NCBI RefSeq assembly: GCF_025685645.1
Contig: NZ_JAGSYF010000004.1
Coordinates: 434,001 to 498,000, forward strand
Length of the DNA: 64,000 nt
Direction: 5' to 3'
From: Edaphobacter bradus
GTDB lineage: Bacteria; Acidobacteriota; Terriglobia; Terriglobales; Acidobacteriaceae
Below the pieces are notes generated by a model. It saw only the letters and a program-made list of their open reading frames with translations, did not search any database and was not told the DNA's origin. Both the position numbers and the translations under genes were made by a program. Positions 3,942 to 36,264 of this stretch are shown in pieces (positions within the stretch are counted from its first letter, which is position 1; each line of letters opens with the position of its first letter).

Positions 3942-4490
3942 ATGCTGATGCAGGACGAATCGAGAAACGAAAGTCTCCTTCCCGTTCAGGAGAGCGCTGT
4001 GCAGGCGGCTGAGAGCCACCCGTCCCACCATGACCGCGGGCTGCTTGCAATCGGACTTTTCAAGCTGGGCAAGGCGATTCTGTTCTTCGGCATCGGCATC
4101 GGAGCACTTCACCTGTTGCACAAGGACCTGGGCGATGAGGTGTTGCGGCTGGCCACCGCGCTGAAGTTCGATCCTGAGAGTCGGTTCGTGACGGTGCTGC
4201 TGGATAAGGTCGACCTGATCGACGCACACCGTCTGAGGCAGATCAGTCTGGCTACCTTTGCGTATTCGGCGCTGGCGTTGACCGAGGGGGTAGGCCTGCT
4301 ACTCGAAAAGGTGTGGGCCGAATATCTGACGCTGTTCCTCACAATTTCGTTCCTGCCGTGGGAACTGTATGAGCTGGCTCGGCGCCCAAGTTGGTTTCGC
4401 TTGAGCCTGCTTCTGATCAATCTGGCTGTTCTGGCCTATCTGGTGTGGCTGCTGCGGCGGAAGAGGCTTGAGGAAGAGCGTACGGCCTAG
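3942..4490 (+). CDS. DUF2127 family membrane protein
   Basis: 182 residues with about four transmembrane segments. The segments GLLAIGLFKLGKAILFF, a soluble loop, LATFAYSALALTEGVGLLL, EYLTLFLTISFLPWELYEL and a final hydrophobic helix before RRKRLEEE match the DUF2127 pattern as I know it. The function of the family is unknown. The first ATG is used; a second ATG two codons later (3948) is an alternative. It sits alone between the dxs terminator and the mra promoter region. Confidence 0.75.
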   Translation: MLMQDESRNESLLPVQESAVQAAESHPSHHDRGLLAIGLFKLGKAILFFGIGIGALHLLHKDLGDEVLRLATALKFDPESRFVTVLLDKVDLIDAHRLRQISLATFAYSALALTEGVGLLLEKVWAEYLTLFLTISFLPWELYELARRPSWFRLSLLLINLAVLAYLVWLLRRKRLEEERTA

Positions 4491-20501: not shown

Positions 20502-21596
20502 TCAGGCCGGGCCCTTCTGAACGGCGTACTCATCTAGCAGGACGGAGAGGAGGGCGGCCGTGGGGACGGCGACAAGCGCTCCGACTACGCCGGCGAGGGA
20601 AGTGCCAAGGAGGAGCGAGACGAGGATGGTGAGGCCCATGAGATTGACGCTGGAGCGCATGATGCGGGGGATGAGGTAGGCGTTCTCGACGTTGACGTAG
20701 ACGAGGTAGAAGGCGAGGACGGCAGCCATCTTGGTCCAGGAGTCGAGTGCGGCAACCCCGGCTGAGAGGCAGATGGTGATGATGCCTCCGGCGACGGGGA
20801 TGATGTTGAAGAGGCCCATGAGGAAGCCGAGGAGAAGGAAATAGCGAACGTGCAGGAGTCCGAAGACGATGGTGCTGGAGATGCCGAGGATGAGCATGAG
20901 CAGGCCCTGTCCGAGGAGCCATTTACTGATCTTCTGGTTGGCGCGCTGGAGGGTGGCGTCGAGACGGAGGCGTTGCGGGAGGGGGAACAGAGAAAGGAAA
21001 AAGCGGTAGGCGTGCTCGCCCTCAAGCATGAAGTAGATGCAGAGGAAAGCGGCGGTGAGGATGTCGAAGAGGTGCGAGAGCCAGAGAGGAAGCGAGGTAA
21101 GGAGATAGCTGGCTGTGGCGGCGAGGGCGCCTTCGGCGCGGGTAACGATGGCGTCGACGTTGAGCCTGTCGACGAAGGGAAGCTTGTGAAACTTCGCAAC
21201 GAAGGCGGGGATGCGGCCGGGAAGCTCGTCGGTGAATTGGGTGAGATCGCGCAGAACGGGAGGAAGTCCCACCGTGAAAAAAGCGCCGAGGAGGAGCGTG
21301 GCTCCGACAAAGAGGATCAGGATGGCGACCGGACGGGAGGGATGCCAGTTGCGGACCTTGAACTCTGTGATGCGGTCGACGGCGGGCATGAGAACGGCAG
21401 CAAAGAGGGCGCTGACGTAGAGGATAACCAGCTCCTTGAGGAGGACCCAGGCGAGCGCCAGGAGGAGCAGGACGCCGATGGTGAAGAGGATGTTGCCGCG
21501 AACGGCGCCTCGAGAACGTTTCTCTTCGTCACGCATTGGTTCGTGCAGTGAGGTAGCCAGCGTTGTCTCCTGCGGTACGGGAGTAGGATGCTGCAA
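20502..21596 (-). CDS. AI-2E family transporter (PF01594-type membrane protein)
   Basis: 364 residues with about eight transmembrane helices, matching the AI-2E_transport family. The N-terminal helix pair (ILFTIGVLLLLALAWVLL, ILYVSALFAAVLMPAVDRI), a periplasmic loop, and the conserved C-terminal block LLGFLMGLFNIIPVAGG...VYVNVENAYLIPRIMRSSVNLMGLTILVSLLLG are clear. Family members export diverse solutes (AI-2, Na+, others); the substrate is unknown here. TTG 21596 is the longest start; ATG 21536 would remove 20 residues that look non-membrane. It lies just downstream of aroK. Confidence 0.88.
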   Translation of the reverse strand: MQHPTPVPQETTLATSLHEPMRDEEKRSRGAVRGNILFTIGVLLLLALAWVLLKELVILYVSALFAAVLMPAVDRITEFKVRNWHPSRPVAILILFVGATLLLGAFFTVGLPPVLRDLTQFTDELPGRIPAFVAKFHKLPFVDRLNVDAIVTRAEGALAATASYLLTSLPLWLSHLFDILTAAFLCIYFMLEGEHAYRFFLSLFPLPQRLRLDATLQRANQKISKWLLGQGLLMLILGISSTIVFGLLHVRYFLLLGFLMGLFNIIPVAGGIITICLSAGVAALDSWTKMAAVLAFYLVYVNVENAYLIPRIMRSSVNLMGLTILVSLLLGTSLAGVVGALVAVPTAALLSVLLDEYAVQKGPA

Positions 21597-21639: not shown

Positions 21640-22221
21640 TCAGGGTTGTCTCTTCAGGGCCAGCAGCAGGGCATCGACGGTCTGCTCGGGTGTGTGCTCC
21701 GAGGTTTCAATGGTGAGCTGCGCGAGGCGGGCATAGAGGGGATGGCGGTGGGCGAAGCGGAGCTCAGCGGCGGCGGGGTCCTGGAGGACAGGACGGGCGA
21801 TGTCCTGGAGCATGCAGCGGTCAAAGAGAGTGGGGAATGGGGCGTCAAGGAAGATGGTGAAGGTCCCGGGGGTCTGCTCGATCAGAAGGCGATTAGTGAG
21901 GCTTTCAGGGGCGCCTCCGCCGAGCGCGAGGACGGTGTAGGTGGCTGAGAGGGCCGAGGCGAGGGCGGTGGACTCGAGGCGGCGGAAGCGAGCTTCTCCG
22001 TGGCGCTCGAAGAGCTCGGGGATGGTGGCTCCGGCGCGGCGCTCAAGGTGGGTGTCGACATCGAGGAAGTTCCAGCCGAGACGCGAGGCGAGCAGGCGAC
22101 CGATGGTGGATTTGCCGGCCCCCATGAAGCCGGTGAGCACGAGCCGCTTGACGTGCGAGGGCAACTCAGCGGGTGTGACGATTGCCGGGGTGAGAGTATC
22201 GGTCGTGGTGGCGGGCGTCAT
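21640..22221 (-). CDS. aroK: Shikimate kinase
   Basis: Phosphorylates shikimate at O3, the fifth step toward chorismate and the aromatic amino acids. 193 residues: Walker A GFMGAGKSTIGRLLA near residue 30, the shikimate-binding DVDTHLERRAG, FRRLE, and the GGGAP motif, then RPVL in the lid region. ATG 22221 is chosen because GGAGAG lies just upstream and the ~20-residue N-terminus is already longer than in E. coli AroK. A terminator and a short aromatic-codon ORF lie immediately upstream, suggesting attenuation control (see those entries). Confidence 0.93.
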   Translation of the reverse strand: MTPATTTDTLTPAIVTPAELPSHVKRLVLTGFMGAGKSTIGRLLASRLGWNFLDVDTHLERRAGATIPELFERHGEARFRRLESTALASALSATYTVLALGGGAPESLTNRLLIEQTPGTFTIFLDAPFPTLFDRCMLQDIARPVLQDPAAAELRFAHRHPLYARLAQLTIETSEHTPEQTVDALLLALKRQP

Positions 22222-22260: not shown

Positions 22261-22295
22261 GCAAAGCAAAAGCCGCGACCTTTGGGGTCGCGGCT
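22261..22295 (-). terminator. Attenuator terminator in the aroK leader
   Basis: On the minus strand AGCCGCGACC (22295-22286), loop CCAAA, GGTCGCGGCT (22280-22271) form a 10-bp perfect stem followed by TTTGCTTTGC. It ends 40 bases before the aroK start and 26 bases after the leader-ORF stop. The first arm can instead pair with GTCGCGGC inside the leader ORF (22361-22354), an antiterminator-like alternative. Confidence 0.65.
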
Positions 22296-22320
22296 CGGGA
22301 AGATCGATGACTCTGAGGAT

Positions 22321-22416
22321 TTAGCTCATTTCAGAGGTGCATGCGTTCCGCCGGCCGCGACTGTGCCAATACCAGTAGCAGTAGCTAAATCGGCCGGTGT
22401 GGAGGTGGTTCAACAT
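22321..22416 (-). CDS. Putative aromatic-amino-acid leader peptide of aroK
   Basis: A 31-codon ORF starting ATG, reading MLNHLHTGRFSYCYWYWHSR and ending with TAA. It carries Phe, three Tyr and two Trp codons within eight positions (codons 10-17), a composition expected of a control-codon run. Before the run lies CCGGCCG (22397-22391), after it CGGCCGG and GTCGCGGC (22361-22351), then the terminator arms, giving possible 1:2, 2:3 and 3:4 pairings as in the trp attenuator. No Shine-Dalgarno sequence is seen; a weak promoter 10 bases upstream would make it nearly leaderless. The regulatory role is inferred; it was read directly from the sequence. Confidence 0.55.
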   Translation of the reverse strand: MLNHLHTGRFSYCYWYWHSRGRRNACTSEMS

Positions 22417-22425
22417 GCTGGCGAT

Positions 22426-22454
22426 AGGCTACACGAGGCCGGGCGGCGACGCAA
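22426..22454 (-). promoter_or_regulatory. Possible aroK leader promoter
   Basis: On the minus strand TTGCGT (22454-22449), a 17-base spacer and TAGCCT (22431-22426) give a weak sigma-70-like promoter, whose start would fall within about five bases of the leader ATG. Only three of six bases match at each hexamer; read-through from the sigma operon is an alternative. Confidence 0.25.
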
Positions 22455-22579: not shown

Positions 22580-22888
22580 TCAGACAGGCTCGGCCTTGAG
22601 GGGCGGCGCAGGTGTCTGGGTTCGTTCGGTGTCGATGCTCTCCTGGATCTTCTTCCAGACGTCGTCGCTCGGGTCTTCGTCGACCTGCTGGAGCAGAAGA
22701 CTGGCCTGCTCGGCGATGTACTGGAGGTCGCGAACCAGGGCAGAGCAGTTGTCGCAGGTCCCCAGATGTTCGTGGAGAGCGCCGTCAGGAATCTGATGGG
22801 AACCAGAGGCGAAGAGATCAGGCAGTTGTTCTTGAAATTCCGCACAGGACATAGGAGCAGGGGAACCGTGATTGTTGTTGGATGTCAT
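22580..22888 (-). CDS. Zinc-finger-type anti-sigma factor
   Basis: 102-residue soluble protein with the [10 protein letters not shown] (His-x3-Cys-x2-Cys) motif near residue 40, typical of zinc-binding anti-sigma domains, and a preceding [14 protein letters not shown] helix common in putative zinc-finger anti-sigma proteins. There is no membrane helix, so it should act in the cytoplasm. It is translationally coupled to the ECF sigma gene by an ATGA overlap, with AGGAGG inside the sigma coding sequence. The partner and signal are unknown; binding to the adjacent sigma factor is inferred from gene order. Confidence 0.8.
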
Positions 22889-23544
22889 AGTGCCGCCTCC
22901 TTGAGGTCGGCCTCCTTGGTGGATTCGGGCTGACGGAGTAGCTCTCGGAGTTTGAGTCGTGCTTTGTGAAGTTGCGATTTGCTGTTGCCGGTGGAGCATT
23001 CGAGCATGCCGGCGATCTCGTTGTGCTCGAAGCCTTCGACGTCGTGGAGGACGAAGACCATGCGGTAACCGGGAGGCAGTGAGGCGACAGCGCGCTCGAG
23101 GGCGACACGGTCGACCGAGCCGGCCAGATGCGGATCGCGGCTGCCGAAGTCACGCTTGGGCGCGTCCTCTTCAGAAGGGTTGATGGTCTCTTCAAGAGAG
23201 ACGAGTTGCAGGCCCTTCTTGCGCAGGTGCATGAGGACGAGGTTGACCGTGAGGCGGTGCAGCCAGGTGGAGAAGGCGCTCTCGCCGCGGAAGCTGCCGA
23301 TCTTGCGGAAGAGGTGGAGGAAGGCCTCCTGGGTCATGTCCTCGGCTTCAGAGACGTTGCCGAGCATGCGGAGGCATAGCGTGTAAACCCGGCGCTTATG
23401 CAGCGCATAAAGGCGGGAGAACGCTTCGGCGTCACCGGCCTTGGCGCGTTCAATCGCCTCAGTTTCGCCTGCAATGGGAGGATTTCGTTTGAACAACCCT
23501 GGAACGGTTTTATTTTCTGTCATCGGTAGGTTCTGGAGATCCAT
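22885..23544 (-). CDS. ECF RNA polymerase sigma factor (RpoE-like)
   Basis: 219 residues with sigma region 2 ([73 protein letters not shown]) and region 4 ([55 protein letters not shown]), no region 3, as in ECF sigma factors. The 40 residues before region 2 include an alternative start (Met8). Paired with a ZAS-like anti-sigma gene immediately downstream. Its target promoter motif could not be identified from this window. Confidence 0.92.
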
Positions 23545-35439: not shown

Positions 35440-36264
35440 TTGAAGATCGCGATTCAGGGAGAGTTGGGCTCTAACAGCCATATGGCAGCGGTGGCGATGT
35501 TGGGGAGCGCAAATGGGCTGGATATCGTTGCGTGCAGCGCCTCGGCGGAGGTCTTCGCCAAGGTCGTGGATGGGAGCGTGGACGGCGCGGTACTCCCGAT
35601 TGAAAACAGCCTGCATGGTTCGGTTTCGGAGCACTACGATCTGCTGCTCGAGAGGCCCGTTGGCATTGTGCGCGAGAGCCTGCTGCGGATTCGGCACAAC
35701 CTGATCGCCATGCCCGGGGTGAAGCCGGCCGAGGTGAAGCGAGTGATGAGCCATCCGGTGGCGCTCTCGCAGTGCCGGAGATTTCTGGCGGAGCACCCGG
35801 AGCTTGAGGTCGTCCCTTTTTATGACACCGCCGGAAGCGTGAAGCACTTGATGGCCGAAGGTCTGCGCGACGTGGCCGGGATCGCTCCGGAGCTTGCGGC
35901 GACACAGTATGGCGGTGAGGTGCTGGTGGCAGGGATCGAGGACCATGCCCAGAACTTCACGCGCTTTCACCTGGTAGTGCGTGAAGGAGCGCCGGGATAC
36001 GACGGAGCGGGTGCGGACAAGATGAGCCTGGCGTTTGCCGTCGAACACCGGCCGGGCACACTGGTTGCGGCGCTGGAACGGTTGGCTGCGGCTGGGGTGA
36101 ACCTGACGAAGATTGAGTCGAGACCGGTGCCAGGCAGCCCGTGGGAGTATGTTTTTTACGTCGATGTGCGATTCGATTCCGCCGCGAAAGCGGACGAGGC
36201 GGTCGAAGCATTGCGGCGGCATTGCCGGATGGTGAAGCTGCTGGGACGATATCGTGCGGCGTGA
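35440..36264 (+). CDS. pheA: Prephenate dehydratase
   Basis: Converts prephenate to phenylpyruvate for phenylalanine synthesis. 274 residues; the N-terminal IQGELGSNSHMAA, PIENSLHGSVSEHYDLL, and NFTRFHLV (the conserved Thr-Arg-Phe) form the catalytic domain, followed by an ACT domain (SLAFAVEHRPGTLVAALERLAAAGVNLTKIESRP) that senses phenylalanine. The start is TTG 35440, since no ATG or GTG is near the homologous N-terminus. There is no chorismate mutase domain. Confidence 0.93.
   Translation: MKIAIQGELGSNSHMAAVAMLGSANGLDIVACSASAEVFAKVVDGSVDGAVLPIENSLHGSVSEHYDLLLERPVGIVRESLLRIRHNLIAMPGVKPAEVKRVMSHPVALSQCRRFLAEHPELEVVPFYDTAGSVKHLMAEGLRDVAGIAPELAATQYGGEVLVAGIEDHAQNFTRFHLVVREGAPGYDGAGADKMSLAFAVEHRPGTLVAALERLAAAGVNLTKIESRPVPGSPWEYVFYVDVRFDSAAKADEAVEALRRHCRMVKLLGRYRAA

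Follow-up and report, generated by a model that had tools for sequence, protein, structure and literature searches.

Does the DNA immediately upstream of aroK, the shikimate kinase gene of Edaphobacter bradus, read the supply of aromatic amino acids, and if so, how? An earlier note on the 64,000-nt stretch of contig analyzed here (the window, to which coordinates refer unless a contig or locus is named) had proposed a ribosome-mediated attenuator at this place. Our analysis supports that proposal, which survived the test of conservation among relatives, where covariation was also seen. We consider it highly probable (about 0.87) that this is a trp-type ribosome-mediated attenuator through which a shortage of charged tRNAs for Phe, Tyr, and Trp turns on aroK, together with the permease gene downstream. 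The elements are the following, in the order of transcription.

22449-22454, minus strand: putative -35 element TTGCGT (TTGCAA in most relatives)
22426-22431, minus strand: putative extended -10 element TG-TAGCCT after a 17-bp spacer, ending 9 nt 5' of the leader ATG
22321-22416, minus strand: leader peptide ORF, 31 codons plus stop, read from the sequence and in-frame in 38 congeneric aroK loci
22391-22397, minus strand: segment 1, CCGGCCG, which pairs with CGGCCGG at 22357-22351
22366-22389, minus strand: control codons F-S-Y-C-Y-W-Y-W (Phe, Tyr, Trp), with the conserved core F-[S/T]-x-x-Y-W
22351-22361, minus strand: segment 2, GTCGCGGCCGG, common to stems 1:2 and 2:3, with a GCGGC core in nearly all homologues
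22287-22361, minus strand: antiterminator, a long bulged hairpin from segment 2 to segment 3 (dG -35.3 kcal/mol, z -5.0)
22336-22331 with 22316-22311, minus strand: internal antiterminator helix CTCTGA/TCAGAG
22287-22294, minus strand: segment 3, GCCGCGAC, which is also the 5' arm of the terminator
22270-22296, minus strand: intrinsic terminator, 11 pairs and a 5-nt loop, followed by TTGCTTTG (dG -21.6, z -5.7)
21640-22221, minus strand: aroK, shikimate kinase (PF01202, E 1.1e-39), the first controlled gene, with GGAG as its ribosome site some 10 nt 5' of the ATG
20502-21596, minus strand: AI-2E-family permease gene (PF01594, E 7.9e-48), 43 nt 3' of aroK

The pairing of aroK with the permease gene is kept in four genera (g1, g48, g80, and g83). 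The two genes are probably co-transcribed, and the permease may serve aromatic metabolism as a transporter. On the 5' side of the attenuator lie two overlapping genes (22580-23544, minus strand), the first for an ECF sigma factor and the second, downstream of it, probably for an anti-sigma factor, judging by its position. The sigma gene occurs at the same place in some congeners only, and the leader is retained regardless. Elsewhere in the window, we noted a bacterial small SRP RNA (RF00169; 36313-36410, plus strand) and a TTG-start short ORF at 4468 (plus strand) with five aromatics in eight residues (..SYFRLYFAYQSQF..).

The leader ORF, as the earlier note had reported it, has 31 codons, six of which in a run of eight are aromatic. 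Translated from 22416 to 22321 on the minus strand, it reads MLNHLHTGRFSYCYWYWHSRGRRNACTSEMS. No second short ORF in the 64-kb window is so rich, and five block shuffles of the window yielded 0, 0, 0, 1, and 0 ORFs with six aromatics in eight. The run owes part of its length to a 4-nt insertion relative to congeners, by which the Tyr-Trp run is doubled. Across relatives, the Tyr codon of the core alternates between TAT and TAC. The note had taken the element to sense Tyr and Trp only; the conserved core points instead to a code of Phe plus Tyr plus Trp.

No Shine-Dalgarno site precedes the window's leader ORF, a point against the attenuator, and a strict sigma-70 consensus scan returned no promoter, including at the putative -35 element. 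The promoter-like motifs are nonetheless placed very regularly among relatives: a TTGC/TTGA motif occurs no more than 45 nt from the leader ATG in all 38 congeneric aroK leaders, and TGTA with the end of the -10 hexamer 8-10 nt before the ATG in 31/38. Such spacing predicts a 5' UTR of a few nucleotides, that is, a leaderless or nearly leaderless transcript, and we infer that transcription starts at the leader ATG or a few nucleotides before it. There is precedent for this. On average, 13% of genes were predicted to be leaderless in three Acidobacteria (PMC3160421), and a leaderless attenuator ORF is known in trpL of Sinorhizobium meliloti (PMC7298713).

Between the leader ORF and aroK, the first structural gene, sits the intrinsic terminator. 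Folding finds its stem where it had been described, with 11 pairs (22296-22270) where 10 bp had been counted. The coordinates previously given for the three competing pairings are exact, namely CCGGCCG (22397-22391) with CGGCCGG (22357-22351), GTCGCGGC with GCCGCGAC, and the terminator arms. The second of these (2:3; 22361-22354 with 22294-22287) proves to close a longer hairpin at its base, the antiterminator (22361-22287), which begins directly 3' of the last control codon and overlaps the terminator. It should be noted that the T tract of the terminator tail is broken up (TTTTGCTTT), which counts against an attenuator. In the window, the control codons do lie between segments 1 and 2, as had been claimed; the wording that likened this arrangement to trp was off, given that the Trp codons of the E. 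coli trp leader are part of segment 1 itself. The CTCTGA/TCAGAG helix, the promoter spacing, and the conservation throughout the genus and the trpB paralogue described below are additions to what the note contained.

To assess conservation, we located aroK relatives in 60 of 61 genomes and read the upstream DNA, which gave 38 congeneric loci (carrying Edaphobacter or Granulicella names). The in-frame aromatic ORF with its core, the antiterminator, and the overlapping terminator are kept in every one of the 38 upstream regions, and covariation accompanies them; the leader ORF starts about 190-430 nt 5' of the aroK match. On the 5' side of the core, length differences between relatives preserve the reading frame. 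On the 3' side, frame shifts occur (ends ...VLACISEN or ...SLRMHL) and the DNA is nearly identical. Thus, the core appears to be constrained as codons and the remainder as RNA. An upstream scan in families f2-f11 found aroK without a comparable aromatic leader ORF.

The basal helix of the antiterminator is present in the minimum free energy fold of 99/99 homologues, with class-mean z values of -2.9 to -4.7 against dinucleotide shuffles (the window scores -4.0 in the same test). In a model-fitted alignment, 88.6% of antiterminator positions are paired (29%-59% in slid controls). Double changes occur at 16 of 21 pairs and fill 131 cells, where 26 would be expected (0/500 shuffles). Because pair counts from such an alignment lean toward the model, we added an alignment-free test, in which 3' halves are swapped between homologues. 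Exchanged halves cost a mean of 5.9 kcal/mol in the diverse set, in which 27/60 native sequences rank in the best 5%; the effect is smaller in the close set (-3.2; 7/39). The close set A2, taken by itself, is too conserved for informative covariation. For the terminator and the control-codon stem, a plain, structure-independent MAFFT alignment of 45 diverse leaders gives 95.5% pairing and 42 double-change cells, where 12 are expected (0/500), and compensatory changes in the terminator are seen among the homologues. An initial RNAalifold consensus from the whole alignment recovered little besides the terminator; we attribute this to the mutual exclusivity of antiterminator and terminator and to misplacement of the inner helix arms by MAFFT.

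Covariation thus extends to the antiterminator and terminator and, outside the aroK copies of the genus, to the control-codon stem, in which the Arg-Tyr-Trp codons (CCGC-TAY-TGG) pair with segment 2 (CCRRTAGCGG). In leaders of trpB and aroF, and in most aroK leaders from outside the genus, this 1:2 stem is strong and covaries, compensating when the Tyr codon goes from TAC to TAT or back, or becomes TTC or TCT. Among aroK copies of the genus, that of the window included, the control-codon stem is lost, the 1:2 stem is weak, and the short control-codon segment has a mean z of -0.8. Substitutes are present there: CCGGCCG/CGGCCGG in the window's subclade and, elsewhere, control-codon stems with the GGCC..GGAG part. 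CCGGCCG as segment 1 is confined to six loci (L001, L012, L020, and L021, plus L013 and L019 with G-U). The 1:2 stem drawn in the earlier note holds for the window and its subclade, and elsewhere segment 1 contains the control codons. This limited conservation and the weakness of 1:2 in the genus's aroK leaders count against the attenuator. Stems 2:3 and 3:4 are thus fixed, and stem 1:2 has been re-wired.

The element is not peculiar to aroK. A function-blind covariance model (R1), built from 22 aroK leaders only and run on 200 Acidobacteriaceae genomes, found 75 matches in 54 genomes of 22 genera. By blastp, 71 of these lie at most 0.7 kb 5' of aroK (22), trpB (26), or aroF (23), which encodes DAHP synthase; the other four are unassigned, two of them at contig ends. 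The window's own genome has exactly two R1 matches, even at E<=10: the aroK leader and a copy before trpB-trpA-aroF-tyrA (genes assigned by Pfam), whose leader peptide is MIISSSRFISFIYRYWRTVAASAE.

L116:1580-6054 (G000 contig C2, 991479-995953): second attenuator with trpB-trpA-aroF-tyrA

Regulation of aroK alone, as first suggested, is thus not what the genome presents: a paralogous attenuator serves trpBA-aroF-tyrA, and the permease gene follows aroK. A second model (R2) matched 181 of 282 near-complete genomes of the family (34/62 genera) and all 52 congeneric genomes, 51 of them with at least two matches. Outside the family, a phylum-wide search gave weak matches only, except for family f29 (L199 and L200), in which Phe-rich leaders and terminators stand 5' of prephenate-dehydratase genes. 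Other genera, too, have homologous or related leaders 5' of aroF or of genes for prephenate dehydratase. Within the family, we also observed Phe-rich leader ORFs and terminators before chorismate mutase/prephenate dehydratase genes (L206, L207, L212, and L215). In the window's genome, no leader of the aroK type was found before pheA or the two chorismate-binding (trpE/pabB-type) genes; the prephenate dehydratase gene in the window (35446-35985, plus strand) has none.

These data bear on a simpler explanation, in which the hairpin ends the upstream sigma/anti-sigma operon, or terminates transcription partially and constitutively, with the ORF present by chance. About 160 nt separate the end of the anti-sigma-like gene from the leader, and the terminator by itself is strong by folding. 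Even so, we find this explanation scarcely credible, because the aromatic ORF is conserved in-frame, a promoter-like motif is fixed next to its ATG, the antiterminator covaries, the same unit also precedes trpB and aroF, and three loci (L032, L036, and L037) keep the leader though no sigma gene was found upstream.

The codon content of the leaders varies with the gene that follows. In aroK leaders of the genus, residues 6-20 include on average 2.0 codons for Phe, 1.5 for Tyr, and 1.2 for Trp. Trp is present in 24/24 trpB leaders. Leaders of aroF have the highest Phe content, and three of 18 are without Trp; loss of Trp together with gain of Phe is seen in some leaders of aroF and of prephenate dehydratase/chorismate mutase. 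A codon mix that tracks the target gene favors reading of codons over arrest by a peptide. The latter would be TnaC-like: a nascent F-T-Y-R-Y-W peptide would stall the ribosome on binding a free aromatic metabolite and throw the same RNA switch. The core peptide is indeed kept across genera and genes, and in our model a ribosome stalled at the core would work through the same hairpins. We nevertheless judge peptide arrest very unlikely, as the core varies with its target in the manner just described, base pairing of CGC and GCGGC accounts for the conserved Arg and Ala-Ala, the spacing of the core is variable, and in the genus's aroK leaders the R is frequently C or S.

A dual role is a separate matter. 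The locus could act as an attenuator in cis and also supply a trans-acting leader RNA or peptide, like rnTrpL/peTrpL of S. meliloti. A short mRNA that is almost leaderless and ends at a terminator of its own resembles the source of the trans-acting RNA and peptide in that organism (PMC7298713), and two homologous leaders per genome might allow cross-talk. The peptide and RNA ends vary freely 3' of the core, however, and we regard a dual role as unlikely.

As for how these leaders arose, we offer tentatively, at somewhat less than even odds, that the Acidobacteriaceae possess a family-wide aromatic attenuator regulon, for which an ancestral leader-terminator cassette was duplicated before aroK, trpBA-aroF-tyrA, and aroF (with related leaders at prephenate dehydratase/chorismate mutase), its codons re-tuned for each operon, replacing repressor control, and its RNAs perhaps acting in trans.

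Under the trp-type attenuator that we favor, transcription would begin at the leader ATG or a few nucleotides 5' of it. We infer that the leader is translated and that shortage turns aroK on, with Phe, Tyr, and Trp as the amino acids presumably sensed. When aromatic amino acids are scarce, the ribosome would slow on the F/Y/W codons and cover segment 1, leaving segment 2 free to pair with segment 3 in the long bulged antiterminator; the terminator would be blocked and aroK transcribed. Given ample aromatic aminoacyl-tRNAs, the ribosome would advance within one or two codons and mask segment 2, segment 3 would pair with segment 4, and transcription would end before aroK. With a homologous trpBA-aroF-tyrA attenuator in the same cell, entry into the pathway at DAHP synthase, the kinase step in its middle, and the Trp and Tyr branches would share one kind of sensor.

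We modeled this switch with the transcript cut before the 3' terminator arm and the ribosome footprint masked. The predicted mean probability of the antiterminator is about 0.8 while an aromatic core codon occupies the A site and falls to 0.01-0.02 just beyond the last aromatic codon. For a ribosome that has reached the stop codon, the modeled value is 0.04 for the set of trpB, aroF, and other aroK leaders and 0.33 for the genus aroK set. For the window's leader, the modeled switch falls at Trp17-Ser19, and the antiterminator is predicted also without a ribosome or with the ribosome at the stop codon, which counts against the attenuator. Equilibrium folding of the full-length RNA with the masked ribosome gives the terminator at most positions, so the decision must be kinetic.

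Among known systems, the E. coli-type trpL (Rfam Trp_leader) shares a leader ORF with product codons, control codons in or adjoining segment 1, mutually exclusive 1:2, 2:3, and 3:4 hairpins, and an intrinsic terminator before a biosynthetic gene. Unlike it, the element described here has a mixed Phe/Tyr/Trp code, aroK as target, a long antiterminator with multiple bulges, and hardly any 5' UTR. The gamma-proteobacterial pheA/pheST attenuators also rely on a translating ribosome that reads aromatic codons, in their case Phe only; they are single-target and do not form one homologous family before aroK, trpB, and aroF, as here. Among the nearest published cases are the classical trp attenuators of Actinobacteria, in a paper that cites those of pheA/pheST type (PMC1262725). 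S. meliloti trpL, likewise from a soil bacterium, has an aromatic-codon leader peptide and a transcript that starts at the leader ATG (PMC7298713), a start that promoter spacing suggests here; it differs in using Trp only and in controlling trpE(G). The nearest parallel at a shikimate-pathway gene is the uORFC-13-1 motif, a predicted uORF attenuator with terminator before aroF in Acholeplasma (PMC8632094), which differs in being restricted to aroF, to Phe codons, and to Acholeplasma (an unrelated lineage), and in having a ribosome-binding site. According to Naville and Gautheret, attenuators predicted in Acidobacteria almost all lack an assigned function (PMC2965389). Rfam 15, at gathering and relaxed thresholds, returned no relevant family (one unrelated chance match, E 1.2). 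We found no aroK attenuator in the open-access literature searched, so an earlier mention elsewhere is possible. The locus is well supported as a conserved attenuator for aromatic amino acids, with a mechanism that is classical; the target, the lineage, and the multi-operon homologous set appear to be new.

What the finding offers is a specific, testable role for an attenuator of the Acidobacteria. Shikimate kinase, a mid-pathway enzyme, would be placed under direct translation-coupled control and linked to DAHP synthase and the Trp and Tyr branches; these bacteria probably register a lack of aromatic amino acids through the speed of the ribosome. Because the codon mix differs by target in dozens of species, the family also offers a natural experiment in the re-tuning of an attenuator code and the re-wiring of its RNA switch, the re-wiring being seen as different 1:2 stems on the same antiterminator and terminator.
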